Positions 561 to 14,757 of a stretch of 64,000 nt of DNA are shown piece after piece. The notes below the pieces were generated by a model, which saw only the letters and a list, made by a program, of their open reading frames with translations, was not told the origin of the DNA and made no database searches. This DNA comes from Agrococcus sp. Marseille-Q4369 (GTDB lineage: Bacteria > Actinomycetota > Actinomycetes > Actinomycetales > Microbacteriaceae), in NCBI RefSeq assembly GCF_018308945.1, contig NZ_CP070501.1, positions 1,922,001 through 1,986,000 of the forward strand, read 5' to 3'. The position numbers were made by a program, and so were the translations under genes. Position 1 is the first letter of the stretch, and the number at the start of each line of letters is the position of its first letter.

Positions 561-673
561 GGCACTCCAGTTCGCCGCCACGCCGATCGCGGTGGATGCT
601 TCGATGGTTACGGCCCTGGCCGATATTGTCAAGGCCGAAGCGCATCGCGCCCCAACCGACGACGGAGGTCGAC

Positions 674-1519
674 ATGCGAGCCCTGCTGCTCGGCGGTGCC
701 GGCGTCGTCGGCTCGATGCTCGCCGACGCCTGGCGGCACCGGCACGAGGTCGCCGTGGCCGACCTGCCGAAGGCGCTCGAGCGGTGGTCGCGCAGCGACG
801 CCGGCCTCGAGCGTCGGCCGATCGACGTCACGGATCCGGAGCAGGTGCGCCACGCAGTCGAGGGGATGGATGCGGTGGTGCACCTGGCAGCGGTCGTCCC
901 GCGAGACGCGAGCGGCGCGGCCGGTGAGGCGGGCCAGGACCCGCGCGTGATCGACGCGAGCCTTCGCGTCAACGTCGTGAGCGTCGTGCACGCGCTGCGC
1001 TCGGCGCGAGAGGCGGGTGTCGGGCGATTCGTGCACATCAGCTCGCTCTCGGTGTTCCGCGACTTCGGGCGTCTGCCGATCGCTCGGGGCGCCGAACCCG
1101 ACGCCGACGCTCCCTACGGGCTCGGCAAGCGGCTCGCCGAGACGGCGTGCCGTGCGCTCGCGGGGGAGGATCTGCGCGTGACGTCGTTGCGGCTCGCCTT
1201 CCCGACGACGGCGGAGCTGTGGCCCGCGTGGCGATCACCGGGGGCGGATGCGTCGACCCCGGCACGCGTGCCCGAGCTGGCGGACGGCACAAGGTTCGGC
1301 GCGCTGCATCCCGACGACCTGGTACGGGCGCTCGACGCTGCGCTCGAGCGCCCCGGGCCGCCGTTCGCAGCATTGGCGGTCACCGGCGACACCCGCGGCG
1401 TGAGCATCGATGACGACCTCGCCGAGCGCCTGCTGAGGTGGCGGCCAGAGCGTCGCGAGCCGTGGCTCCCGGGAGGTGAGCGAGCCGTGGCGCCGCGCCG
1501 GCGGGAGAGCGGCGCTTAG
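674..1519 (+). CDS. NAD-dependent epimerase/dehydratase family protein
   Basis: A 281-residue Rossmann protein. The start is ATG 674, preceded by GGAGGT four bases upstream; an in-frame extension to 596 lacks both a ribosome site and family similarity. The N-terminus MRALLLGGAGVVGSMLAD holds the GxxGxxG nucleotide loop, DVTDPEQ and VVHLAAVVPRD match the acidic and substrate-side loops, and YGLGKRLAE is the YxxxK catalytic motif of extended SDRs. It probably acts on a nucleotide sugar or free sugar derivative; the exact substrate is unknown. It is divergent from the NAD-binding gene at 1-560 and its stop overlaps the end of the convergent oxidoreductase gene by four bases. Confidence 0.85.
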   Translation: MRALLLGGAGVVGSMLADAWRHRHEVAVADLPKALERWSRSDAGLERRPIDVTDPEQVRHAVEGMDAVVHLAAVVPRDASGAAGEAGQDPRVIDASLRVNVVSVVHALRSAREAGVGRFVHISSLSVFRDFGRLPIARGAEPDADAPYGLGKRLAETACRALAGEDLRVTSLRLAFPTTAELWPAWRSPGADASTPARVPELADGTRFGALHPDDLVRALDAALERPGPPFAALAVTGDTRGVSIDDDLAERLLRWRPERREPWLPGGERAVAPRRRESGA

Positions 1520-2445
1520 TGCTGAGCCGCCTGGGAGGCCCCGATGAGCGCGGCGAGGATCGCACGCGTCTCGGCCCACGGCACGGGTGACGGCGCGCCG
1601 TCCTCGACCATCGCGAGGAACCGCTCGACGGTACGGCGGTAGCCGAGCGGATCGTCGCCCGCGGTGTCGAGCCGCACCTCGTGGGTGCCGTGCTCGGTGT
1701 GCAAGCGCAGTGCGTAGCCCTCCTCGGCTGCGACGCCCAGCACATCCACCGTGCCGAGCGTGCCGTTCGACCAGCGCAGCGCGATGCTCGCGAGGTCGCC
1801 GCTGCGGAGTCCTCGGTAGCGCCGGCGGGAGACGATGCACGAGCCGAGCGCGACATCGGGCCCGAGCACGCTCACGAGCAGCTCGACGCCGTGGATGCCC
1901 ATCGTCACGACGAGGCCGCCGCCGACGGCGGGGTCGTCCTGCCACGGTGTCGAGCCGTGCTCCCACCGCCCGACGTCGTGGCGCACGAGCACGTGCGCCG
2001 CCAGCACGTCGGCGGGATCGATCGTCTCGCGCAGCCGCCGCACCGGCTCCGCGAAGCGCAGCACCGAGGTCGTCATGAGCCGCTCGGGCGCGCGTGACCA
2101 GATCGCCTCGAGCGCCGCGAGCTGCTCGCGCGTCGCTGCGGCCGGCTTGTTGACGAACACCGGCACGCCGAGCTCCGCGACCTCGGCGAGCAGCCCGGCG
2201 ATCCGGTCGGAGCGCGCGCTCAGCACGACTCCCTCGGCATCGGCGACCGCGGCAGCGAGGCTGTCGCACAGCGGCACGTCCGGCACCGCCTCGGCGAACG
2301 CCGTCCGGCGGTGCTCGTCGTCGTCCCAAGCGCGGAGGGATGCCTGGGGTCGGAGACGTGCGATCGTCGTCGCGTCCGAGAGCGGGTGGCTCGTAGCGAG
2401 GCCGACGAAGGCGATCGTGGGGCTCGCGCTCGACGTGTCGACCAT
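1516..2445 (-). CDS. Gfo/Idh/MocA-family oxidoreductase
   Basis: About 309 residues with the two-domain layout of Gfo/Idh/MocA dehydrogenases, which oxidise sugars, inositols and related compounds with NAD(P). The N-terminal Rossmann part reads TIAFVGLATSHPLSD, so the usual GxGxxG loop is not canonical. The family EKP motif appears as NKP (VPVFVNKPAAA, near residue 95). The C-terminal part has the WQDDPAVGGGLVVTMGIHG segment, which matches the catalytic D/H region. ATG 2445 is preferred over GTG 2451; neither has a clear ribosome site, so a leaderless start is possible. It is divergent from the DapA-family gene at 2522. Confidence 0.85.
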   Translation of the reverse strand: MVDTSSASPTIAFVGLATSHPLSDATTIARLRPQASLRAWDDDEHRRTAFAEAVPDVPLCDSLAAAVADAEGVVLSARSDRIAGLLAEVAELGVPVFVNKPAAATREQLAALEAIWSRAPERLMTTSVLRFAEPVRRLRETIDPADVLAAHVLVRHDVGRWEHGSTPWQDDPAVGGGLVVTMGIHGVELLVSVLGPDVALGSCIVSRRRYRGLRSGDLASIALRWSNGTLGTVDVLGVAAEEGYALRLHTEHGTHEVRLDTAGDDPLGYRRTVERFLAMVEDGAPSPVPWAETRAILAALIGASQAAQH

Positions 2446-2521
2446 GCGCACGAGTCAAGCACAGGCGTCATGCCGGGGTTGGTCCGCGCGCTTCGCGCAC
2501 CCCCGGTGGGAGGATGATTCC

Positions 2522-3421
2522 ATGCCGTCGACCCCGCTCGCCATGCCGGCGGATGCCCTCGTGGCCGCCGCGCTCACACCCATCACGACGAGCGGCGATC
2601 GCGACGAGCGGGTGACGGCCGGTTACCTCGAGAGCTTGCTCGCCGACGGTGCCCGCGGACTCGCGGTCGCGGTGCACACCGGGCGCGGCGCGGGCATGCC
2701 GATGGATGCGCGCGCTGGGCTCATCCGACGGGCAGCAACGCTGTCGCCCATCGTGGTCACCGGCATCTGGGCGGGCGACGACGTCGAGCGCGCTGCGGGT
2801 GCCGCTGCTGCCGCCGGGGCGACCGCGCTGCTCATGGAGGCCGCGCATCCGCACGACGCCGCCCGGGAAGTCGAGCGCCTCGATGTCGCGAGCGCTGCGA
2901 GCGGCTTGCCGCTCATCGCGTTCGACCTGTACGCGCGGCCATACGGCCGCCATGTGCGGCAGGCGGTGCTCGCCCACGCGGGAGTGCACGCATACAAGCC
3001 CGCCCTGCTGCACGACGCGATCGCCTGCCAGGAGGGCATCGACGACGCCGTCGCGGCGGCCGTGATCGTGCTGACGGGCGAGGATCGCATGTTCGTGCCT
3101 TCCCTCCTGTGGGGCGCGACCGGCGCGCTCGTGGGCATCGCGGCGGCCGCAACTCCCGTCACGGCGCGTGCGCTCGCGGCGGTGAGCGCTGGCGCCGACG
3201 ACGTGGCGGCAGCGAGCCGTGCCCTCGACGCACTCGCGCGCGTCACCTTCCGGCCGCCCTTCGACGGATACGTGCAGCGGATGGCCTGGGTCGCGGCCGA
3301 CGAGGGGCGCATCCCCTGGGCGTACGCGATCGACCCGGCACGGCCGAGCGGCCTGCGCGACGGCGAGCGCGACCACGTGCTCGCCGTGGCGCGCGCGCTG
3401 CGCGGGCGGGTGGATATATAG
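2522..3421 (+). CDS. Dihydrodipicolinate synthase (DapA) family aldolase/lyase
   Basis: A 299-residue class I aldolase-type TIM barrel. ATG 2522 follows GGGAGG with ideal spacing. ALTPITTSGDRD is the family N-terminal strand, FDLYARPYG takes the place of the YNVPxRTG tyrosine loop, and Lys159 in HAYKPALLHD is the expected Schiff-base lysine. Family members cleave or condense pyruvate with aldehydes or sugar acids, so a 2-keto-3-deoxy sugar acid or similar substrate is plausible. It is unlikely to be biosynthetic DapA because its motifs diverge and its neighbours are catabolic. It is followed after 66 bases by a regulator in the same direction. Confidence 0.85.
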   Translation: MPSTPLAMPADALVAAALTPITTSGDRDERVTAGYLESLLADGARGLAVAVHTGRGAGMPMDARAGLIRRAATLSPIVVTGIWAGDDVERAAGAAAAAGATALLMEAAHPHDAAREVERLDVASAASGLPLIAFDLYARPYGRHVRQAVLAHAGVHAYKPALLHDAIACQEGIDDAVAAAVIVLTGEDRMFVPSLLWGATGALVGIAAAATPVTARALAAVSAGADDVAAASRALDALARVTFRPPFDGYVQRMAWVAADEGRIPWAYAIDPARPSGLRDGERDHVLAVARALRGRVDI

Positions 3422-3487: not shown

Positions 3488-4723
3488 ATGGACACGGTCG
3501 TCGGCGTCGTCGGACCGCGCGATCTGGTCGACCACGTCGCCGCGGTCTGCGGCTCGCAGCCGGGCGCGCGCATCGAGCGCTTCACCTACGCCCACGAGTC
3601 GGAAGCGCCGGGGATCGTGCAGGAGAGAGCCGGCGGGGTGGATGCCTGGCTCTTCACCGGCGTCATCCCGTACGCGCTCGCGACTCCCGGGCTCACCCGG
3701 CCGGCCGGCTACGTCGACTACACGGGGGCGACGCTGCTGCAGGCGCTCGTGCGCCTGCTGCGCGACGGCCACGAGGTCACGCGACTGAGCATCGACACGC
3801 TCGACGCGACGCAGGTGCGCTCGGTGCTCGAGGAGAGCGACGTACCCACCGAGGGCGTGCACACGCTGCCGTTCCGCGCGGGCGAGCACTCCGACGCGGC
3901 GGTCGGCTTCCACCAGCGCCACGCGGGTGAGGGCACCGTCGCGATCACGTGCGTCTCGTCCGTGCACCAGCGTCTGCAGGCGGACGGCATTGCGGTGCTG
4001 CGGCTCGTCCCCTCGCGCGACGCGATCCTCACAGCGCTGCACCAGCTGCTGCTGGTGACGACCAACCAGATCAACGAGGAGTCACAGGTCGCGCTCGGCC
4101 TGCTCGAGTCGGATGCGCCCTTCGACGAGCTCACGAAGGAGGGCAGGACCGCCGCGATGGCGTTCGCGGGCACGATCGCCGACGCGGGCGACGGGAGCCT
4201 GCTGCTCGTGTCGACCTACGGTCGCCTGTCGGAGGTGACGGGCGGCCTCTCGTCGGCGCCGTTCCTGCGCCGGCTCGGCGTGAGCCTCGGCTCGGTGCGC
4301 GTCGGGTTCGGTGTCGGGCGCAGCGCGGCGGAGGCGGAGACGCTTGCGCGGCGCGCGCTGAGCCGCGCGCGCAGCCACGGCCGCATCGCCGCCGTCGCGT
4401 CCTTCCGCGGTGACATCGACATCCTGCTCGATGCCGAGAGCGCCGGTGCGCACGTCGACGCGCTCGATCAGGCGAGCATCGGTGTCGTGGCGGCGCGCGT
4501 CGGCCTCTCGGTGCCGACCCTCGAGCGGCTGCACGAGCTCTCGATCCTGGCGGGTGGCGAGCCCGTGACGACACGCGACATCGCTGATCGCCTGGGCATC
4601 CAGCAGCGCACGGCACGCCGCATCGCGCAGCGGCTCGAGCTCGCGGGCGTCGCGCAACGCGACGGGAGCCGCCAGCCGACGGGCTCCGGCAGGCCGCTCA
4701 CGCTCTACCGACTGCACCTCTGA
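3488..4723 (+). CDS. Transcriptional regulator with C-terminal winged helix
   Basis: A 411-residue protein. The last 60 residues (TTRDIADRLGIQQRTARRIAQRLELAGVAQ) form a clear winged-helix DNA-binding region. The middle segment, VRVGFGVGRSAAEAETLARRALSRAR, resembles the diverged cyclase/GGDEF-like sensory fold seen in PucR-like activators. The N-terminal 200 residues (VVGPRDLVDHVAAVCG, WLFTGVIPYALATPGL) look like a ligand-sensing region and were not matched to a named family. It is the only regulator in this locus, so it is the best candidate controller of the transport operon. The ligand is unknown. Confidence 0.7.
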   Translation: MDTVVGVVGPRDLVDHVAAVCGSQPGARIERFTYAHESEAPGIVQERAGGVDAWLFTGVIPYALATPGLTRPAGYVDYTGATLLQALVRLLRDGHEVTRLSIDTLDATQVRSVLEESDVPTEGVHTLPFRAGEHSDAAVGFHQRHAGEGTVAITCVSSVHQRLQADGIAVLRLVPSRDAILTALHQLLLVTTNQINEESQVALGLLESDAPFDELTKEGRTAAMAFAGTIADAGDGSLLLVSTYGRLSEVTGGLSSAPFLRRLGVSLGSVRVGFGVGRSAAEAETLARRALSRARSHGRIAAVASFRGDIDILLDAESAGAHVDALDQASIGVVAARVGLSVPTLERLHELSILAGGEPVTTRDIADRLGIQQRTARRIAQRLELAGVAQRDGSRQPTGSGRPLTLYRLHL

Positions 4724-4759: not shown

Positions 4760-5941
4760 TCAGCTGAGCTGTCGGCGTGCGCGCGCATCGCCGAGCACTC
4801 GCTCGAAGGCCGTCGCGGCGCTCGCCGCGTCCGTCTCGCCCCCCATCAGCATGTGCTGGCGCAGCCAGACCACGCGTCCGGCTCGCGCATCGAGACCGGG
4901 CGTGGGAACAACGCGCGACTGGCTCGCCACCGCATCGATCGTGGCCAGCGACGGGTAGCCAAGGTCGACCGGCACGCCCTCGGCCGCCAACGCCTCCGCG
5001 ACCCAGCGTCGCTCGATGTCGGCACCCAGGTCGACCATGAGCAGGTGGCGGGAGTTGCGGGTAGTGCCTTCGGGATCGGGCACGATCGTCGCACCCGAGT
5101 CCCGTTCCGCGAGCCGCTCGCGGAACGCATCCACGAACCGCTCGCGCATCGCGATCTCGTCGTCGAGCCGCTCGAGCCACGGCAGCAGCAGTGCCGCCTG
5201 CAGCTCGGTCATGCGCAGGTTCCAACCCACTCGCGCATGGTGGTACCACGCGCCGTCGCGCTCGCGCCCGACGTTGCAGAGCGACCAGATGCGGTCGGAG
5301 AGCTCGGGATCGTCGGCGACGATCAGCCCGCCCTCCCCGGCCGTCATCGCCTTGCTCGACTGGAAGCTGAAGGTGCCGGCGTCGCCGAGCGCGCCGACCG
5401 GCTGATCCCGCCAGTGCGCCCCGTGGGCCTGTGCGGAGTCCTCGACGACGAAGAGGTCATGGCGCGATGCGACGCGCAGCAGCTCGTCCATCGGCGCGGG
5501 GCTGCCCGCCAGGTGCACGACCATCACCGCGCGGGTGCGCGGCCCGATCGCTGCCTCGAGCGTCTCGGCGCTCAGATGCAGGTGCTCGGGGTCGACGTCG
5601 GCGATCACGGGTGTGGCTCCCGCGAGCAGCACCGAGGTCGCGCAGGCGATGAACGTGTAGGAGGGAACGACCACCTCGTCGCCGGGCCCGATCCCCGCCG
5701 CGCGAAGGGCCACGAACAGGGCGATCGTGCCGTTCGTCATGGCGATGCCGTGCTCGGCTCCATGCCGTGCGGCGAAGCGATCGGCGAGCCGCTGGCACAG
5801 CGGGCCCGACGTCGAGCCCCACGCTCCGGACTCGACGACCTCCAGCAAGAGCGCGCGCTGCTCGGCGCTCGCCGCGGGCGGCCAGCTCGGCCAGCTGCCG
5901 GGGTGCGAGGGAGCGCCCCCGTCGATCGCAAGCATGCTCAT
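4760..5941 (-). CDS. DegT/DnrJ/EryC1/StrS-family PLP aminotransferase
   Basis: A 393-residue sugar-aminotransferase-type enzyme. FSFQSSKAMTAGEGG gives the PLP-binding lysine (Lys197) and VVEDSAQAHGA supplies the aspartate pairing with the PLP nitrogen (Asp168). MTNGTIALFVALRAAGIGPG is the usual cofactor-phosphate loop region. The family adds or removes amino groups on keto-sugars or cyclitols. ATG 5941 has GGAGG just upstream, and its ATGA overlaps the stop of the preceding amidohydrolase gene, so the two are translationally coupled. In this catabolic setting it may work in the deaminating direction; that is inference. Confidence 0.88.
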   Translation of the reverse strand: MSMLAIDGGAPSHPGSWPSWPPAASAEQRALLLEVVESGAWGSTSGPLCQRLADRFAARHGAEHGIAMTNGTIALFVALRAAGIGPGDEVVVPSYTFIACATSVLLAGATPVIADVDPEHLHLSAETLEAAIGPRTRAVMVVHLAGSPAPMDELLRVASRHDLFVVEDSAQAHGAHWRDQPVGALGDAGTFSFQSSKAMTAGEGGLIVADDPELSDRIWSLCNVGRERDGAWYHHARVGWNLRMTELQAALLLPWLERLDDEIAMRERFVDAFRERLAERDSGATIVPDPEGTTRNSRHLLMVDLGADIERRWVAEALAAEGVPVDLGYPSLATIDAVASQSRVVPTPGLDARAGRVVWLRQHMLMGGETDAASAATAFERVLGDARARRQLS

Positions 5942-6732
5942 CGTCCTCCCTCTCCCGCGGTCGATGCGGTGTCGTGCTCGAGCAGGCGGTCCCCGAGGAT
6001 CCGCCGCGCGTTGCCCCCGAGCAGCAGTGCTCGCTCGTCCGGCGTCAGGCGGGCGCCGAGCGCCTTGCCGAGCCCGACCCGGGGATCGAGGAAGCACGCA
6101 TCCGTGCCGAAGACGACCTTCTGCGCACCCGCGAGCTCGACGATGCGCTCGAGCCAGCGATCGGTGAGCCGCGATCCGCAGGTCTCCAGGTGCAGTCGGT
6201 CGTGCTCGCGGGCGAGGGCGGCCGCGCGATCGAAGCCGTCGACCCAGAGGCCCGAGTGCCCCATGAGCACATCGACGTCGGGATGGTGCGCCGCCGCGCG
6301 CGCGACGGCCTCGGGATCCGACCATGCCGACCTCGTCTGCCCGTGGGTGAGCACAGGTGCAGCGTGCTCGGCGGCGAGACGCAGGAACGGCTCGTAGCCA
6401 GGTCCGTCGATCGGATGCTCGTGGACGTCGGGGTGGAGCTTGAGGCCCCACACGCCCGGCAGCTCCAGCTGCTCGTCGAGCAGCGCGATCTCGTGCGGCC
6501 GGTGCGGGTGCGCGACGAGCCAGACACCGAGTCGCGCGGGATGCGCGCTCGCGGCGACCAGTGCCATCCGGTTGCCGACCGCGGTGTCGTGGCCGACCGC
6601 TGCCAGGTGCGAGACGCCGACCGCGTCGATGCCGATGCGGGTGTTGGTCGCCACGAGCCACTCGGCGGAGGGCTCGGCGATGAAGAAGTCGCCCCAGGTG
6701 CCGAGGTGGCCGTGCATGTCGACGACGCTCAT
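5938..6732 (-). CDS. Amidohydrolase family protein (metal sites intact)
   Basis: A 264-residue amidohydrolase of the amidohydrolase-2 (ACMSD-like) type. The N-terminal MSVVDMHGHLG holds the metal-binding HxH (His7, His9), VLMGHSGLW gives a further conserved histidine, and KVVFGTDACFLDP carries the metal-site aspartate. Such enzymes hydrolyse or decarboxylate small cyclic or acidic compounds. ATG 6732 overlaps the end of the upstream paralogue by four bases (ATGA), and its own end overlaps the aminotransferase start, so it sits mid-operon. The substrate is not deducible. Confidence 0.82.
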   Translation of the reverse strand: MSVVDMHGHLGTWGDFFIAEPSAEWLVATNTRIGIDAVGVSHLAAVGHDTAVGNRMALVAASAHPARLGVWLVAHPHRPHEIALLDEQLELPGVWGLKLHPDVHEHPIDGPGYEPFLRLAAEHAAPVLTHGQTRSAWSDPEAVARAAAHHPDVDVLMGHSGLWVDGFDRAAALAREHDRLHLETCGSRLTDRWLERIVELAGAQKVVFGTDACFLDPRVGLGKALGARLTPDERALLLGGNARRILGDRLLEHDTASTAGEGGR

Positions 6733-7472
6733 CCGGGATCCCCCACGAGCTCGAGCCAGGTGCCGCTCGCGATGCGCTCGACGTCGCGGGCCGGCAGCTC
6801 GAGGTGGTCGAGCTGGAATCGGGGACCGGCCGCATCCCACGCCGGGGCGCCGGTGCCGAACGCCAGCCTGTGCGCGCCCACGGCCCTCGCGAGCCACTCG
6901 AGCGCGCCCGCGCCGACGAGCGTGCCGGTCTCGACACGCAGCCGAGGCGCGTGCTCGAGCAGCTCGACGATCCTGCGCAGCTCTCGGTAGCCGGGGGAGA
7001 GCACGAGCACCGACAGCTGCGGCAGCCGCGACGCGAGCGCCGCGACGGCCCCGAGCCCGCACTCCGATGCATCGAGCGCGATCGGCACGCCGCGCGTCGC
7101 GAGCGCCTCCCACCAGGCGAGCGCGGTCGGCCCGAGCATCTCGAAGCGGTGACGCTCTGGGCACACGCGCACCATCGGCGCGACGACGTCATCCGGTGAC
7201 GCCGGCCAGCCGGCACCGGCGAGCGCAGGGATGATCACGGGCACCGGGGTGAGTCGCCCATCTGCTGCCCTCAGCTCGTCGTCGAAGGTGCGCCGGCGCG
7301 CGAGCTCGAACTCGTCCGCCGCCCGCGGGTCTGCATGCAGCATCCAGCTCGGCGTGACCCCCGCCGACGCGATCGAGAGCCGGTCGAGGTCGTCCAGCAG
7401 CTCCTCGGCGCTGCCGCTCTCGAGCCCCGTGGGGCGCGCGCCGAGCACGCGGTGCGCGTCGATGACCCGCAC
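6729..7472 (-). CDS. Amidohydrolase-like protein lacking key metal ligands
   Basis: A 247-residue protein in the same superfamily as its downstream neighbour, with GTG start 7472 one base after the permease stop. The N-terminus is MRVIDAHRVLG, so only one histidine of the HxH motif remains. The C-terminal FGTD motif of the partner is FGTGAPAWD here, which removes the metal-site aspartate. A TIM-barrel pattern of strands is still visible. It may be a catalytically silent partner, a regulatory subunit, or an enzyme with a different mechanism. The paired arrangement suggests the two proteins act together. Confidence 0.7.
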   Translation of the reverse strand: MRVIDAHRVLGARPTGLESGSAEELLDDLDRLSIASAGVTPSWMLHADPRAADEFELARRRTFDDELRAADGRLTPVPVIIPALAGAGWPASPDDVVAPMVRVCPERHRFEMLGPTALAWWEALATRGVPIALDASECGLGAVAALASRLPQLSVLVLSPGYRELRRIVELLEHAPRLRVETGTLVGAGALEWLARAVGAHRLAFGTGAPAWDAAGPRFQLDHLELPARDVERIASGTWLELVGDPG

Positions 7473-7473
7473 G

Positions 7474-8370
7474 TCAGCCCTTGATCCCGCTGGCGACGAT
7501 GCTGTTGACCAGGTAGCGCTGGAGGAGCGCGAAGATGAGCAGGCATGGGATGACGCTGATCGCGGCCGCCGCCATCAGGTCGGCGAGCACGACATTCTCA
7601 GAGCTGAGCGTCGCGAGGCCGACGGTGAGCGTGCGCATCTCGTCGGACTGAGCGATGATCAGCGGCCAGAGGAAGTCGTTCCAGTGCCACAGGAACACGA
7701 AGATGCCGAGGGTCGCGAGCACCGGCTTGGTGAGCGGCAGGACGATGCGCCAGAAGGTGGTCCACTCGCCCGCGCCGTCGATGCGCGCAGCGTCGAACAG
7801 CTCGTCCGGGAGCTCGCGGATGAACTGGCGCATCAGGAAGACCGCTTGCGAGTTCGCGAGCGTCGGCACGATGAGGCCCCAGAAGGTGTCGATGCCATCG
7901 AGCGACGCGACCAGCACGAACATAGGGATGATGGTCGCCTGCACTGGAACCATGAGCGTCGCGAGGAACGACCACATGAGCGCGTCGCGCCCTGGGAACC
8001 GCTTCTTCGCGAGCGCATAGCCGGCCATCGATGCCGTCAGCAGGATCACGACGACGGAGACGACCGAGTAGACGAGCGAGTTGATCGTCCATCGGACGAA
8101 GCTCTGCGCGCCCAGCACGCCGGCCATGTTGTCGAGCGTCAGGGACTCGGGCCACTGGAACGGGATCGTCGGCTCGCCCGCCGGGCTGAGCGCGAGGATG
8201 AAGACGGCGACGAACGGGCCGACGGTGAAGATCGAGGCCAGCGCGAGCAGCACCGTGATCCACACCTGGCCGCGCGTGCGCGGGCGGCGCCGTCGTGCCC
8301 TCGACGCGGGTGCGGTGGAGGTCGGCGGCTCGAGGGGCGCACCCGGGGCGACGGTCGGCGCGATGGTCAA
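7474..8370 (-). CDS. Carbohydrate ABC transporter permease (MalG type)
   Basis: A 298-residue inner-membrane permease of the MalG/CUT1 class with six predicted membrane segments and the EAA loop AARIDGAGEWTTFWRIVLP that contacts the ATPase. The start is TTG 8370, overlapping the previous permease stop as TTGA, with GGGAG upstream. A Pro/Arg-rich cytoplasmic N-terminus of about 35 residues precedes the first membrane helix. It pairs with the permease at 8367-9317 and the lipoprotein at 9382-10650. No ATPase gene is in the locus, so a shared MsiK-like ATPase elsewhere is likely. Confidence 0.92.
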   Translation of the reverse strand: MTIAPTVAPGAPLEPPTSTAPASRARRRRPRTRGQVWITVLLALASIFTVGPFVAVFILALSPAGEPTIPFQWPESLTLDNMAGVLGAQSFVRWTINSLVYSVVSVVVILLTASMAGYALAKKRFPGRDALMWSFLATLMVPVQATIIPMFVLVASLDGIDTFWGLIVPTLANSQAVFLMRQFIRELPDELFDAARIDGAGEWTTFWRIVLPLTKPVLATLGIFVFLWHWNDFLWPLIIAQSDEMRTLTVGLATLSSENVVLADLMAAAAISVIPCLLIFALLQRYLVNSIVASGIKG

Positions 8371-9317
8371 GAGGTCTCCCGATCGAGGAATCGCCGCTGG
8401 ATGAGCGAGATGACGAAGACGATGACGAACAGCGCCACCCCGACAGTGGCCGCGTAGCCGAAGTCGAAGAATCGGAAGCCCTGGTCGTAGAGCATGAACA
8501 CGAGCGAGTAGCTCGCGCGAGCCGGCCCGCCGCCGGTCATGACGTAGATGGTGTCGAACACCTGGAAGGCGGCGATCGTCTCGATGACGACGACGAAGAA
8601 CACCACCGGGCGCAGCAGCGGCAAAGTGATGCGGAAGAAGCGCTGCACCGGCCCCGCCCCGTCGATCATCGCGGCTTCCGTGAGCTCCTCCGGGATGTTC
8701 TTGAGCCCCGCGAGCAGGATGAGCATCGAGTAGCCGAAGCCGCGCCAGGCGGCGACGACGCTGAGCGAGCCGAGCACCATCAGCTGATCGCCCGAGAGGA
8801 AGGGGATCGGATCCTGCTCGAACGACTGCAGGATGCCGTTGATGAGTCCGTCGGACTGGTACACCCAGACCCAGATGATGCCGGCCAGCACGAACGAGGT
8901 CACGTACGGCAGGAACAGGGCACCGCGGAAGAACCCCTTGGCCCAGATGACGTGATGCAGCAGCAGCGCGGTCAGCATGGAGACGATGAACACCATCGGC
9001 ACGTAGATCGCGGCGTAGAGCAGGGTCGTGGTCAGGCTCTGGTGGAAGATGGGGTCGCTCAGCAGGCGCTGGTAGTTCTCGACGCCGACGAGGTCGAACT
9101 CGCCGCTGAGGCGATAGTCGGTGAAGCTCATCCCCGCGGCGCCGAGTGACGGCACGAAGCGGAAGATCACGAACAGCACGAGCATCGGCAGCACGAAGAG
9201 GACGCCGACGATCGGTTCGCGCAAGCGCGCGTGCAGCGGCATCCTGCGTCGGGCCGGATGCGTCGGGCTGCCCGATGCGGTCTCCGGCGCCTCGGACCCG
9301 TGCCTGGTGAGCGTCAT
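8367..9317 (-). CDS. Sugar ABC transporter permease (MalF type)
   Basis: A 316-residue membrane permease with a cytoplasmic N-terminus and six membrane segments beginning at IVGVLFVLPMLVLFVIFRFVP. The EAA loop is AAMIDGAGPVQRFFRITLP. The YDQGFRFFDFGYAATVGVALF C-terminal region is typical of CUT1 permeases. ATG 9317 follows AAGGA. It is the second gene of the transport operon, separated from the binding-protein gene by 64 bases containing a strong stem-loop, and it is coupled by overlap to the next permease. Confidence 0.92.
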   Translation of the reverse strand: MTLTRHGSEAPETASGSPTHPARRRMPLHARLREPIVGVLFVLPMLVLFVIFRFVPSLGAAGMSFTDYRLSGEFDLVGVENYQRLLSDPIFHQSLTTTLLYAAIYVPMVFIVSMLTALLLHHVIWAKGFFRGALFLPYVTSFVLAGIIWVWVYQSDGLINGILQSFEQDPIPFLSGDQLMVLGSLSVVAAWRGFGYSMLILLAGLKNIPEELTEAAMIDGAGPVQRFFRITLPLLRPVVFFVVVIETIAAFQVFDTIYVMTGGGPARASYSLVFMLYDQGFRFFDFGYAATVGVALFVIVFVISLIQRRFLDRETS

Positions 9318-9381: not shown

Positions 9382-10650
9382 TCAGGGGGCGCGCTCGATG
9401 ACCTGCCGTGCCTCGGCGGCGGCGGCGGCGAGCGCCTCCTGTGCCGTGACCTGGCCCTGCAGGGCAGCCTGGAGGTGCGGGCTCAGCGCGGCCATGACCT
9501 GGCGGGCGTTCGGCACCACCTCGCCAGGGCGAGCGTGCTCGAGTGCCGCCACGAACTGCGCGACGTCCTCGTCGTCGCTCGACACCTCGGCGTCGACGAG
9601 CACCGGGTAGGTGCCCGACGCCTGGTGCAGCGCGCTCGAGACCTCTGCCGATCCGATGTACTGCGCGACCGTGCCCGCAGCTTCGGGGTTCTCGCTGATC
9701 GAGGTCAGCGCGAGCACGCCCGGAGTGCCGAACGTCGCTTGCTCCTCGCCGGTGAGCGGTTCGCCGACCGCGACCGTCTCCTCGCCGAGCGCGGTCTGCA
9801 TCTGGCGGACCTCGGCAAGCGTGACGGCGTAGCCCATGGCCGCACCGCCGGTGCCGAGCGGGCCGCCCTCGATCGCGTTCGCCTTCGTCGCGGCGTCGGC
9901 CGGCAGTCCGCCAGCCTCCTGCAGGTCCATCAGGAACTGCAGGGCGGCGACGCCCTCCTGGCTGTCGAACGCCACATCGGTGCCGTCCTCGGTGAAGACG
10001 GTACCGCCGGCCTGCCACAGCAGCGGGTAGAAGCTGAGGTTCAGCGTCATGTTCGGCGATCCCGAGTAGTCCATCACCGCGACGCCCTGCTCGGCGAGCA
10101 CCGGCGCTGCCGCGAGCACGTCGTCCCACGTCGTCGGCAGCTCGATGCCCGCCTGCTCGAACAGCTCGGTGTTGTAGGCCGTGGTCGTCGAGGTCTGGTA
10201 GATCGGATAGCCGTAGACGCTGCCGTCGTAGGTGACGGCGTCGATCGTCTGGGGGTAGAAGGCATCGGGTTCGATCGCGTCGTCCAGGGGCTGCAGGCCG
10301 CCGGTCCCGTAGTAGTTGAGCGTCTGATCGGCGGTGAGCAGCACGAGGTCGGGCCCACGGCCGGAGGCGAGTGCCGTCGCGATCTTCTCGTCGCGGTTGT
10401 CCCACGGCTGCAGCTCGATCTCGAGGTCGATGGTGTCGTTCTCAGCCTCGAAGTCCTCCTCGACTCCGCTCCAGTACTCCTGGCTGGCCGTCTCGTCGGG
10501 GATGACGGGATACATCCACACCGTGACGGTCGACCGCTCGCCGCTCGCGCCTTCGCTGGCGCCGCCGCCGGTGCCGCCTCCGCCCGAGCAGGCGGTCAGC
10601 GCGAGGAGCGCGACGGTCGCTGCGGCCGGAAGAGCGATTCTCTTGTCCAC
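9382..10650 (-). CDS. Extracellular solute-binding lipoprotein of the sugar ABC transporter
   Basis: A 422-residue precursor starting at GTG 10650, with GGAGGG upstream. VDKRIALPAAATVALLALTACSGG is a lipoprotein signal with lipobox LTAC; mature Cys is near residue 21 and is followed by a Gly/Ser-rich tether. The body (VTVWMYPVIPDE, LYGYPIYQTSTT-like segment, TYNTELFEQAG-type and PTTWDDVLAAA motifs) fits cluster B/family 1 sugar-binding proteins. It captures the substrate outside the cell for the two permeases downstream. It is the first gene of the operon, behind a good promoter and palindrome. Confidence 0.9.
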   Translation of the reverse strand: MDKRIALPAAATVALLALTACSGGGGTGGGASEGASGERSTVTVWMYPVIPDETASQEYWSGVEEDFEAENDTIDLEIELQPWDNRDEKIATALASGRGPDLVLLTADQTLNYYGTGGLQPLDDAIEPDAFYPQTIDAVTYDGSVYGYPIYQTSTTTAYNTELFEQAGIELPTTWDDVLAAAPVLAEQGVAVMDYSGSPNMTLNLSFYPLLWQAGGTVFTEDGTDVAFDSQEGVAALQFLMDLQEAGGLPADAATKANAIEGGPLGTGGAAMGYAVTLAEVRQMQTALGEETVAVGEPLTGEEQATFGTPGVLALTSISENPEAAGTVAQYIGSAEVSSALHQASGTYPVLVDAEVSSDDEDVAQFVAALEHARPGEVVPNARQVMAALSPHLQAALQGQVTAQEALAAAAAEARQVIERAP

Positions 10651-10678
10651 ATGGCCCTCCGAATGTTTCAACGGGAAC

Positions 10679-10728
10679 GTCCGATTTCGGACTACGCCGA
10701 AACTATCCGGCGCGCCTGCCGCTGTCAA
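10679..10728 (-). promoter_or_regulatory. Promoter and palindromic operator of the ABC operon
   Basis: On the minus strand a perfect TTGACA (-35, 10723-10728) is followed after 17 bases by TAGTTT (-10, 10700-10705). Just downstream, covering the expected transcription start, is the palindrome GTCCGATTTCGGAC (10679-10692; 6-bp perfect arms). This is a classic repressor position. The cognate regulator is unproven; the wHTH protein at 3488 or an outside LacI/GntR protein are candidates. Confidence 0.65.
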
Positions 10729-11584: not shown

Positions 11585-11676
11585 GTGGCCGGTCAGCCTG
11601 CGGCGCACTGGCCGGTCAGCCTGCGGCGCACTGGCCGGTCAGCCTGCGGCGCACTGGCCGGTCAGCCTGCCTCGCA
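11585..11676. repeat. Four tandem 23-bp repeats copying the 3' end of a gene
   Basis: The unit CTGGCCGGTCAGCCTGCGGCGCA occurs at 11585, 11608, 11631 and 11654; the first copy differs at its first base and the last at two or three bases. Read on the minus strand the unit encodes the last residues and TGA stop of the secreted protein gene. Because 23 is not a multiple of three, the stop in the second copy from the gene side (11639-11641) ends translation and the other copies are untranslated. Confidence 0.9.
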
Positions 11677-14341
11677 CCCGGTTGTCGGCGAGCTGGGGCA
11701 CCGAGGCGTTCCCGGAGCAGGCGATGCTGCCGCGCACGTCGTTGCCCTGCACCACGGCGGCTGACCCGCTGCCCCGGTCGAGCCAGAGCGTGCCGCGGAT
11801 CTCGTTGCCCGAGAGCCTGGTGGCGCCGGCGGTCCTCGACAGCGATACCTCCCCGCGAACCGAGGTGCCGGTGATCGACACCAGGTCGGCTCCGGTCGCC
11901 TGGATCCCGCCGCGCACCTCGCTGTCGGTCACGACCACCGAGGCGCCCGTCGACACGGAGATGCCGCCGCGCACATCCGCGTCCGCCACGCACGTGACGC
12001 CGCTTCGCAGGGTCAGGATGCCACGCTGGTCGCCGGTCACGGTGCGGTCGCAGACGAGGTCGGTGACCTCGTAGTCGGTGCGCACGATGCTGCCGGTCAG
12101 CGGTCTCACGACCTCGAGCGCAGCACTGCCGACGGGCGCGTCGAGCGGCACGGGCATGCTCGCCCTGGCGACACCCGAGGCGTCGGCCCGCAGCTCCCCC
12201 AGCGGTGTCGCGTCGGGCCTGCTCCACAGCTCGACCGGCTCGTCAGCGCCGAGTCCGGAGATCTCGACGGTCAGCTGCCCGCCCCGCACGGCATCCGAGA
12301 CCGCGACGTCGACCGCCGGTCTGGCGTCCGGCTGCCACGCCCATGCCTGCGTGTCGCGGGCGACGTAGGCGAAGCCGTCCGACGCCATGAGCGAGAGCCC
12401 CCACGGCCGGAAGACGCGGGCGCGTTCGAGCGTGTCAGGGTCGATGCGCCAGATGGAGCCCTGTGCGCCCACGTAGACCTGGTCGTCGTATGGATCGACC
12501 CAGAGGTTGGATGCGACCCAGATGTACTCGACGGAGTCCCAGTCGTACGGTGCGTAGCGCTCGCTCGCCGTGACCGCCTGCGCCTCCACGTCCACGCGGA
12601 AGACCATCGTGGGGCTGGCGATCCACAGCTGGCCCGCCTTGTCGAAGGCGAGCTGGCCAAAGGCGTGCTCGCCGGCCTGCGGCTCGATCATCCACAGCAT
12701 CGCGCGCTGCTCGATGTCGTAGGCGAACAGCACCGCGTCGCGGTCGGTCGGCCGAGGCGCGCCGGAGCCGCCGAAGACCGAGGTCGTGCCATAGAGCACG
12801 CCGTCCCGGTAGGCGAGGCCGACGACGGAGTGCCCTCCGGCGACCTCCTCCGTCCAGTGCTCGCCGGTGGTGGTGTCGAGCAGCGCGAGCAGGCCGCCGG
12901 TGGCGCCGTTCTGCGGCACCGTCCCGATGGCGAGATGGCGCCCGGCCGACTCCATGGCCCACGGGCGCGACTGCCCCTGGTCGTACAGCGCGAGCTCGAC
13001 GGACGGGTTGACGCCCTGCTGCACGGGCTGGCTCGGGTCGTAGCGCTGGATCTCGGCTCGCGGATAGGTGCCGAGGTACACGGCGCCATCGTGCGTCGCC
13101 AGACTCTCGGCCTGCGGTGACTCCGCGATCCGATGCATGGTGTCGGTCGCGGGATCGTAGGCGGCCAGATCGCCGCCGAGGTACGAGCTGAAGTAGATCC
13201 GCCCGTCGGGCCCCTCGGTCATCGAACGCGTGTTCGCGGCCGCGCCGGCGACATCGGCGCCCAGCCGAGCCGAGCGGCCGGTGGCGGGCGAGTACAGCAC
13301 GTAGCCCCCCTGGTAGTCGGAGCCGACGAGGGTCTCGCCCGGCCAGTCAGACTCGCCGAGCTCGAGGAATCCGAATGCCCGCATGTCTCCGATGCCCGTG
13401 AACCCCGTCGCCTCCCAGGTGCGTGACGCCAGGTCGTAGCGGTGCAGCGTGCGGTCCTTGACGAAGTACACGCTGGTACCGTCAGCGGCCACCTCCGACA
13501 TGCGCAGCCCGTGCACGCCGGGGATCGTCTCGACATAGGTGCCCGCGGCGATGTCGTAGACGTGAAGCGGCTGCGGGCTGCCGCTCGTCGAGACGCGCAC
13601 GAACAGCAGCCCGGCCCGCAGATCCAGGTCGTAGACCGACTGCTGGCCAGCGACGTCAGGCAGCGGCAGCTCGGTGCGCTCGCCGGTCGCGATGTCGATC
13701 GCGTGCAACGACGGGGCGGGCGACGTGCCGACGTAGATCGTGCCGTTGCCGGCGGCGACGGCACGCACGAGCACGGGTACCTGCGCGCTGCCGAAGGCCC
13801 CGTAGTCGCGTGTCACCCCGGTACGGGGGTCGTAGCTGAAGATGTGTCCGCCGATCTGCCCGGTGCCGCCGTAGATCACGCCGTCCTCGTCATGGGTGAT
13901 CGACCAGATGAAGTTCTCGCCCGGCACCATGACGCCCAGGTCCTCGACGCTGTTCGTCGCGAGCACATAGCGGAAGAGGCGGCCGCTGCCATACGTGCCG
14001 ATGGCGATGTCGCCGTTCGGCAGGGCGTCGACCGCCCATGCGCCGCTGGCGTTGGGCAGGGGGAACCGCTCGATCGATTCGCCGGTGCGGACGTCTGTGA
14101 TGCTGAGCACCGCCTCGTTGCCCGAGGAGACCCAGTAGAGGCGGGGCTCGCCGTCCGGCCCCGGCGCCGTGGTCGAGCCCGGCGCGACCACCGCGTTGAG
14201 CGGGATGGGCGGAAGCGGGTCGACCACCTGCGCGGCCTGTGCGGCTGCGGGCTGCGCGACGAGCAGGAGGGACGCGGCCATCGCGAGTGCGAGGACGATC
14301 GCTCGCCCCTTCGCCATGACGGTGGATGTGGTGTGCTGCAT
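11639..14341 (-). CDS. Large secreted propeller-like protein with C-terminal RG repeats
   Basis: A 900-residue exported protein. The N-terminus is a Sec signal (MAKGRAIVLALAMAASLLLV, cleavage probably after AAAQA). Residues of roughly 60-690 hold repeated blade-like segments (GRLFRYVLATNSVEDLG, IFSYDPRTGVTRDYG, LAAYDPATDTMHRIAES, IWRIDPDTLERARVFRP) as in YVTN/SMP-30-type beta-propellers. A beta-sandwich-like stretch follows. The last about 130 residues contain six V/I-R-G turns spaced 19-21 residues apart, like a right-handed beta-helix. No sortase motif or membrane anchor is visible. Substrate or ligand is unknown. ATG 14341 is used; an internal ATG at 14317 is an alternative. Confidence 0.8.
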   Translation of the reverse strand: MQHTTSTVMAKGRAIVLALAMAASLLLVAQPAAAQAAQVVDPLPPIPLNAVVAPGSTTAPGPDGEPRLYWVSSGNEAVLSITDVRTGESIERFPLPNASGAWAVDALPNGDIAIGTYGSGRLFRYVLATNSVEDLGVMVPGENFIWSITHDEDGVIYGGTGQIGGHIFSYDPRTGVTRDYGAFGSAQVPVLVRAVAAGNGTIYVGTSPAPSLHAIDIATGERTELPLPDVAGQQSVYDLDLRAGLLFVRVSTSGSPQPLHVYDIAAGTYVETIPGVHGLRMSEVAADGTSVYFVKDRTLHRYDLASRTWEATGFTGIGDMRAFGFLELGESDWPGETLVGSDYQGGYVLYSPATGRSARLGADVAGAAANTRSMTEGPDGRIYFSSYLGGDLAAYDPATDTMHRIAESPQAESLATHDGAVYLGTYPRAEIQRYDPSQPVQQGVNPSVELALYDQGQSRPWAMESAGRHLAIGTVPQNGATGGLLALLDTTTGEHWTEEVAGGHSVVGLAYRDGVLYGTTSVFGGSGAPRPTDRDAVLFAYDIEQRAMLWMIEPQAGEHAFGQLAFDKAGQLWIASPTMVFRVDVEAQAVTASERYAPYDWDSVEYIWVASNLWVDPYDDQVYVGAQGSIWRIDPDTLERARVFRPWGLSLMASDGFAYVARDTQAWAWQPDARPAVDVAVSDAVRGGQLTVEISGLGADEPVELWSRPDATPLGELRADASGVARASMPVPLDAPVGSAALEVVRPLTGSIVRTDYEVTDLVCDRTVTGDQRGILTLRSGVTCVADADVRGGISVSTGASVVVTDSEVRGGIQATGADLVSITGTSVRGEVSLSRTAGATRLSGNEIRGTLWLDRGSGSAAVVQGNDVRGSIACSGNASVPQLADNRVRGRLTGQCAAG

Positions 14342-14559
14342 GGCCCAGGACCTTTCGTGGGAGAGCGTTGCGTGCACAGTAACGGTCCGGGCCGAAAACC
14401 GAAAGAGTTCATCGTGTCGGGGTCGCTCATGCGCCGCCGCTTGCGCGATCGCAGCCCGGCCCGGTATGGAGCGTGGCGGACGCTCGGCACCACAGGTGGC
14501 CTGTGTCCCGCACGGGTGATGGTCGGGCGCGCGACAGGGTCGCGGCGGCGGGGGATCCG

Positions 14560-14757
14560 ATGGCAGACGACGACACGCTCTTGAAGGCGGAACAGGATGC
14601 GCTCGAGCGGCGCACGCAGGAGCTGCGGGAGCAGGGCAAGCGCAGGGCGCACCGAAGGAGAACGAGCGGCGCGGTGATCGTCGCGTTGGCCGAAGCCGCC
14701 GTTCAGGCGATCGCCATGCGCGAACGGGAATGCGCATCGCCCAGCAGCGTTGTCTAA
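14560..14757 (+). CDS. Small basic hypothetical protein
   Basis: A 65-residue reading frame from ATG 14560, preceded by GGGGG seven bases upstream. It begins MADDDTLLKAEQDALERR, continues as a charged helical segment rich in Arg/Glu, then a short apolar stretch (SGAVIVALAEAAVQAIAM). No family was recognised. It ends two bases before the HspR box of the downstream ATPase gene and is not obviously cotranscribed with it. It could be a chance frame in GC-rich DNA. Confidence 0.4.
   Translation: MADDDTLLKAEQDALERRTQELREQGKRRAHRRRTSGAVIVALAEAAVQAIAMRERECASPSSVV

Follow-up and report, generated by a model that had tools for sequence, protein, structure and literature searches.

The genome of Agrococcus sp. 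Marseille-Q4369 contains two adjacent paralogues of the amidohydrolase family PF04909 (Amidohydro_2), here called gene A (upstream) and gene B (downstream), on the minus strand of a 64,000-nucleotide stretch (contig NZ_CP070501.1, positions 1,922,001 to 1,986,000; hereafter the window). A is best explained as a non-catalytic, metal-free partner of B, the two proteins being subunits of one enzyme in which B is catalytic, and we put the probability of this reading at about two in three. Gene A (6729-7472) encodes 247 amino acids from a GTG start, bears the motifs DAHRV and FGTG, and is a PF04909 protein without a metal site. Gene B (5938-6732) encodes 264 amino acids from an ATG start, bears the motifs DMHGH and FGTD, and has the complete set of metal ligands: H7, H9, H130, H159 and D211 (HHHHD). 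At the same five positions A carries H, V, D, S and G. Both proteins lie above the Pfam cut-off of 26.4 bits (29.8 bits for A, 96.3 bits for B), and a scan with NCBIfam assigned no family to either. A preliminary description of this locus gave coordinates, strand, gene overlap and motifs (HGH and FGTD in B, HRV and FGTG in A) that are borne out by re-reading the sequence. It also held that A had lost one histidine and the aspartate; the loss is real but its extent was understated, as four of the five ligands are gone and only H7 is kept.

The stop codon of A (TGA, 6731-6729) and the start codon of B (ATG, 6732-6730) form a 4-bp ATGA overlap (6729-6732, minus strand), which likely reflects translational coupling, and the GTG of A is placed one base past the stop codon of the upstream permease gene. 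A 4-bp overlap of A and B is also seen in an Isoptericola metagenome-assembled genome (locus L002) and in Nonomuraea (L012, GTGA there). The Isoptericola locus is the closest relative found, with the same cluster in the same gene order and identities of 70% for A and 75% for B; the ligand positions of its A are occupied by H, L, D, S and G. Between this locus and the window, the ratio of non-synonymous to synonymous substitution rates (dN/dS) is about 0.25 for A (0.211/0.829) and about 0.20 for B (0.177/0.871). The matching losses and gene order, along with the low dN/dS, indicate that the ligand loss in A is due neither to chance nor to decay. Profile searches find one A and one B in the window's genome. 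B was found at E<=1e-10 in none of the 23 other genomes of the genus, A having been searched in part of these, and the A/B cluster is therefore accessory in the genus.

The loss of ligands extends to the homologues of A. Domains were counted as A-type if they scored higher with the A profile than with the B profile and reached at least 85 bits, which yields 70 distinct domains across 161 loci. Since the A profile was built from such A's, the ligand count is biased by this definition; adjacency to B lies outside it. Of the 68 A-type domains that are readable, 21 have a single ligand left (the first histidine in 19 of these) and the other 47 have lost all five, and none has the full metal site whose occurrence the preliminary description had named as contrary evidence. 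The readable B partners are HHHHD in 61 of 62 cases and HHHYD in one. A hand-picked set of 33 pairs gives a similar picture: A keeps no ligand in 24, one in eight and four in one, and B keeps five in 31 and four in two. The residues found at the old active-site positions vary by A group (HVDSG, NWSGY, DLEDR, NYVNK). Solo PF04909-type domains from the same 161 loci serve as a control. Thirty of these 40 domains are readable, 23 of them HHHHD and seven with at least one substitution, and two of the 30 carry at least three substitutions (L158, HRVHE; L016, RDNHE). Loss of ligands thus occurs outside pairs as well, though it is far deeper and steadier in the A's than in the solo domains. The 70 exclude domains that fall short of 85 bits or fit the B profile better, and those excluded include five tandem PF04909 pairs, one of them in L071. 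The other four are L079 and L080, each with an intact B next to LMAHM (the B of L080 is partly read), a Burkholderia pair in L087 (SYHHD and HHHHD), and a second pair in L152 (16465-18920; DHVRD and HHHHD).

A-type domains are nearly always accompanied by B, counted as a partner when it shares the frame of A or lies no more than 4.5 kb away on the same strand. Sixty-five of the 70 domains are paired, 52 of them as separate genes with A preceding B, one with B preceding A, seven in A-B frames and five in B-A frames; the unpaired five comprise three at sequence ends and two standing alone. A sample of 394 genomes from the window's class gives 30 matches to A (E<=1e-35) and 30 to B (E<=1e-60), which make up 29 neighbouring pairs; the leftover A and B matches both lie at contig ends of one genome (G823, contigs C111 and C150). 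Neither A alone nor B alone was seen in these genomes at these thresholds. Solitary occurrence of either gene was the other contrary finding named in the preliminary description: B stands alone in none of the 29 checkable strong matches of the 394 genomes, and A in two of the 67 domains of the 161 loci with enough flanking sequence (L093 and L094). The view of the preliminary description that an active enzyme is paired here with a silent partner draws sequence-level support from the ligand counts, the near-obligate pairing and the fusions described below. Relatives of the A profile were found in the window's order, phylum and class, and records from a plasmid collection add cases from Nonomuraea, Subdoligranulum, Klebsiella and haloarchaea; no relatives were found in viral contigs. 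The distribution suggests that, across distantly related bacteria and some archaea, the active paralogue has kept the silent one as an enduring partner. Four loci (L142, L143, L144 and L155) each hold two types of A/B pair, HxDxG and DLxDR, a few kb apart. The neighbours of the two solitary A-type domains (L093, 4863-5711; L094, 4609-5460) resemble, by the look of their translations, class II aldolase, a corrinoid protein, a methyltransferase and SurE.

Twelve pairs are encoded as single open frames with no stop between the barrels, seven in the order A-B and five in the order B-A. Two genomes of the window's order have A and B fused into one protein of 541-543 amino acids with A first, the fusion in L004 measuring 543. 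Halomontanus rarus carries an A-B and a B-A fusion as neighbours, one natural fusion of this species being WP_276256065.1, and four further haloarchaea have the B-A fusion at 56-68% identity; the six haloarchaeal fusions are each annotated as a single coding sequence. Fusion in both orders lends support to a physical association of A and B and, combined with their co-inheritance, points to a putative complex of the two proteins.

The evolution of A closely follows that of B. Identity distances among the A's correlate with those among the B's (r = 0.965 over 32 pairs, leaving out pair G452c of locus L071), and none of 9999 permutations reached this value. Five genomes hold two pairs; in these, the closest kin of an A mostly correspond to those of the B beside it. 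A tree was built from 76 rows, excluding the ligand columns and leaving out the pairs G674, G200 and G484. It unites 21 A's from the window's phylum, Subdoligranulum and Halomontanus in one group (support 100/94) and 22 B's in another (95/89), the inner order of which is largely that of the A group. The haloarchaeal B-A type, the Klebsiella pair and the G573 pair are placed outside the main groups, on long branches that make their placements unsure. Because these pairs fall elsewhere in the tree, the A's are suggested to have more than one origin. A single origin of all A's was set aside, as the tree gives four changes, at least two of which are forced by well-supported branches; a single group of 24, joining the main A's with the DLEDR type, is not rejected (approximately unbiased test, p-AU 0.675).

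A is under purifying selection like B. Over three species pairs, dN/dS is about 0.25, 0.14 and 0.09 for A and 0.20, 0.12 and 0.12 for B, the synonymous distance being near saturation in the third pair. Across 54 pairs, the most conserved columns of B include all five ligands, and the 28 most conserved columns of A consist of structural residues plus a strand-4 motif and include no ligand position. This motif is kept over the same pairs, with R102 in 42, P105 in all 54 and H108 in 41. Although its catalytic site is gone, A is held by purifying selection and inherited together with its paralogue, as would be the silent member of an enzyme-pseudoenzyme heteromer.

These properties can be accommodated by a scheme in which B would be a metal-dependent catalytic barrel and A a sister barrel of duplicate origin whose metal site was lost and which was retained as a dedicated non-catalytic partner. 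A probably replaces one B subunit in the usual dimer of the family, and with A in place B might fold, or close its active site, properly. Two known systems offer analogies. The 2-aminoisobutyrate hydroxylase AibH1H2 of Rhodococcus wratislaviensis is described as a heterotetramer in which AibH2 is catalytic and AibH1 non-catalytic but essential (PMC7782822, PMC10401708, PMC12141560), and a review puts forward the proposal that AibH1 keeps AibH2 in shape (PMC12141560). In 2-amino-3-carboxymuconate-6-semialdehyde decarboxylase (ACMSD), the metal ligands are given as H9, H11, H177 and D294, and Arg239 from the adjacent subunit of the dimer, which completes its neighbour's active site, as crucial for catalysis (PMC11650718). 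By analogy with these, A is most likely a dedicated partner needed by B for folding or for active-site completion; the complex itself, the inertness of A, its trans-acting role and the substrate class of the pair are what we infer. R163 and R166 of A, located after strand 6, are invariant in six aligned A's, but over 54 pairs they fall outside the 28 columns conserved best. A trans-acting arginine after strand 6 was rejected as the single mechanism, as only some of the A's conserve it, and is kept as a possibility.

AlphaFold models were built for single chains from two-row alignments. The model of B is of moderate quality, with a predicted local distance difference test score (pLDDT) of 66 and a predicted template modelling score (pTM) of 0.71, and is good enough for a barrel match only. 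Its best structural match is CAC3332 (3cjp), an uncharacterised amidohydrolase of Clostridium acetobutylicum (Z score 18.3 over 206 residues), which also heads the PDB matches to the B profile (E 6.8e-21). The model also matches resorcylate-type decarboxylases and ACMSD chains (Z about 15). ACMSD is, like B, a PF04909-type metal barrel, but its subunits are described as equivalent, whereas one of the A/B partners has no metal site. The AibH1H2 entry 8ful is present among the 50 structure-comparison entries for the B model (Z 14.5), and chains named AibH1 or AibH2 are not among the matches listed for the A profile (21 at E<=1) or for the B profile (best 60 of 63, E<=10).

Several observations weigh against A and B being an inert and a catalytic subunit of one enzyme. 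The inertness of A is read from its missing metal site only, and ligand loss occurs in solo domains too, hence it is no proof of partnership by itself. The second member of the tandem pair in L071 (G452c) is nearly intact (HHHHD and HHCHD), and A-like domains occur without B in two genomes of one genus, g117 (L093 and L094). Many rows are close relatives, so that the counts do not represent independent events. Finally, the model of A is poor (pLDDT 47, pTM 0.43) and unusable.

Some of the same evidence would fit A being a second enzyme with a different, metal-free chemistry, acting in the step before or after B, with pairing and fusion serving channelling; we regard this as unlikely. Some characterised PF04909 enzymes are reported to act without a cofactor (PMC10811679). 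Purifying selection is as strong on A as on B, and the strand-4 residues R102, P105 and H108 are retained. Fusions are also common between consecutive enzymes. However, what occupies the former active-site positions changes from one A group to the next, and no new polar set beyond strand 4 appears in the 28 most conserved columns of A. The several separate origins, each with an intact paralogue, are better suited to the role of a subunit. It is less probable still that A is a sensor whose vacated pocket binds a pathway metabolite and thereby tunes B. The polar residues that A keeps best lie in strand 4 and face the old pocket, and the pairs recur beside transporter and regulator genes, both of which would suit a sensor; the A model is too poor for pocket geometry.

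AibH1H2 is the closest precedent for A as the metal-free partner of B, and a heteromer of a catalytic and a non-catalytic PF04909 protein is already known from it. The preliminary description had called the arrangement unusual, which holds only in part, as the published AibH1H2 consists of two amidohydrolase-superfamily paralogues, one of them non-catalytic. As in A/B, which is known here from its genes, the two paralogues are adjacent. The differences are several. AibH1 still binds metal, reportedly through D24, H26, H201, E255 and D328 (PMC7782822), and A has no metal site. AibH2 is described as holding a dinuclear centre and working with a ferredoxin and a reductase (PMC7782822, PMC10401708, PMC12141560). 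Its set of residues is D-x-H, H, E, D with a histidine at +3 and an aspartate at +5, whereas that of B is HxH/H/H/D with an aspartate at +5. The AibH subunits measure 373-378 amino acids, against 247-264 for A and B. Homologues of AibH2 are, according to the review, not always accompanied by AibH1-like proteins (PMC12141560), whereas A and B are nearly always found together.

An acidic residue at +5 (337 to 342 in AibH2) is described as typical of binuclear centres (PMC7782822), and the aspartate five positions after the ligand aspartate of B (D216 in the window) is retained in 51 of 65 partners. This residue, and the combination of two PF04909 paralogues with one non-catalytic, are the features that would be shared if A/B were itself an amidohydrolase-related oxygenase of the AibH1H2 kind. 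Such an identity is very improbable: B has His-x-His in place of D25/H27 of AibH2, the histidine at +3 (H340 of AibH2) is present in none of the 65 partners (the window B has F214 there), and A is devoid of the D/H/H/E/D set by which AibH1 binds metal. Moreover, no ferredoxin or reductase was found among the nine window neighbours scanned with Pfam, one of which (1835-3418) matched nothing. A decaying, functionless duplicate, to which the ligand loss in A might point, is hardly tenable given that the dN/dS values of A are like those of B and that A is retained beside B across bacteria and archaea.

Dead paralogues or relatives kept as essential subunits are known from trypanosome AdoMetDC with its prozyme and from ATCase with a pseudo-dihydroorotase, which differ from A/B in protein family or in the type of partner. 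New in the A/B pairs are the partner without any metal site, the near-obligate pairing, the fusions in both orders and the spread over bacterial lineages and haloarchaea, as well as the setting among transporter and sugar genes in place of an oxygenase one. Among open-licence papers, we found nothing on metal-less PF04909 partners besides the AibH1H2 papers. We would tentatively extend the argument to the family, with somewhat more doubt than confidence: obligate heteromers of enzyme and pseudoenzyme may have arisen repeatedly within PF04909, the active site of the living barrel in each borrowing residues or shape from a metal-free sister. These would comprise one old pair, present in several bacterial lineages and a haloarchaeon, and the separately placed haloarchaeal reversed fusions, the phosphotransferase-linked pair of a Klebsiella plasmid and a pair from a different family in the window's phylum. 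If this is true, amidohydrolases of sugar catabolism would have in the metal-free barrel a general subunit that has so far been overlooked.

Proteins of this kind are annotated singly as 'amidohydrolase family protein'. If A and B make up one enzyme, B may appear inactive or insoluble when assayed by itself, and the enzyme name given to A would be false. The pairs provide a clean natural series of separate genes, overlapping genes and fusions in both orders, with several apparent origins, which allows one to ask how a duplicated enzyme subunit turns into a helper. The natural fusions also allow the complex to be modelled or expressed as a single chain.

The gene order in the window is solute-binding protein, permease, permease, A, B and aminotransferase, all on the minus strand and identified with Pfam. 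The row consists of an extracellular solute-binding protein of an ATP-binding cassette (ABC) transporter (9382-10728, SBP_bac_1/SBP_bac_8, start codon not fixed), two ABC transporter permeases (8367-9317, and 7474-8397 with the start codon not fixed; both BPD_transp_1), the A/B pair, and a DegT/DnrJ/EryC1/StrS-type aminotransferase (4760-5935). Close by are a probable regulator of 411 amino acids (3488-4723, plus strand), a Gfo/Idh/MocA-type oxidoreductase (1516-2451, minus strand, Pfam) and an NAD-dependent epimerase/dehydratase family protein (596-1519, plus strand, Pfam, start codon not fixed). Because an aminotransferase of sugar type and an ABC transporter with a solute-binding protein share the operon of the pair, the substrate of the pair is probably an imported sugar-like compound, perhaps an amino- or keto-sugar. 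Similar neighbourhoods are seen elsewhere. Among the 40 loci of at least 6.5 kb carrying an A/B pair (long pair loci), homologues of the window's ABC components occur in 16, of the aminotransferase in 15 and of the probable regulator in 10. Other pair loci contain ribose-type transporter genes (called from translations by eye), class II aldolase and a xylose-isomerase-like barrel; further genes belong to the glucosamine-6-phosphate isomerase family or are heparinase-like, sulfatase or phosphotransferase genes. The A/B pairs thus appear to serve sugar-type catabolism, with that of the window lying in a putative sugar-uptake operon.

In Pfam the 411-amino-acid protein matches only a helix-turn-helix, weakly and at its C-terminus; its N-terminal part is conserved but belongs to no family, and the protein possibly represents an undescribed type of regulator. 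A propeller-type protein of 1032 amino acids (11639-14737, minus strand), with weak matches to Reg_prop and DUF6923, recurs near A/B pairs in seven of the 40 long pair loci. The frame at 1835-3418 had been labelled a DapA-type barrel from its appearance; it has no Pfam match at 1e-4, and the label was dropped. On the Klebsiella pneumoniae plasmid CP067510.1 (L014, 4992-8911), B precedes A at a distance of 2.4 kb, with mannose-family phosphotransferase genes in between; E. coli genomes gave no match to this region. An ADP-ribosylglycohydrolase-family gene and a GntR regulator come after the Klebsiella pair.

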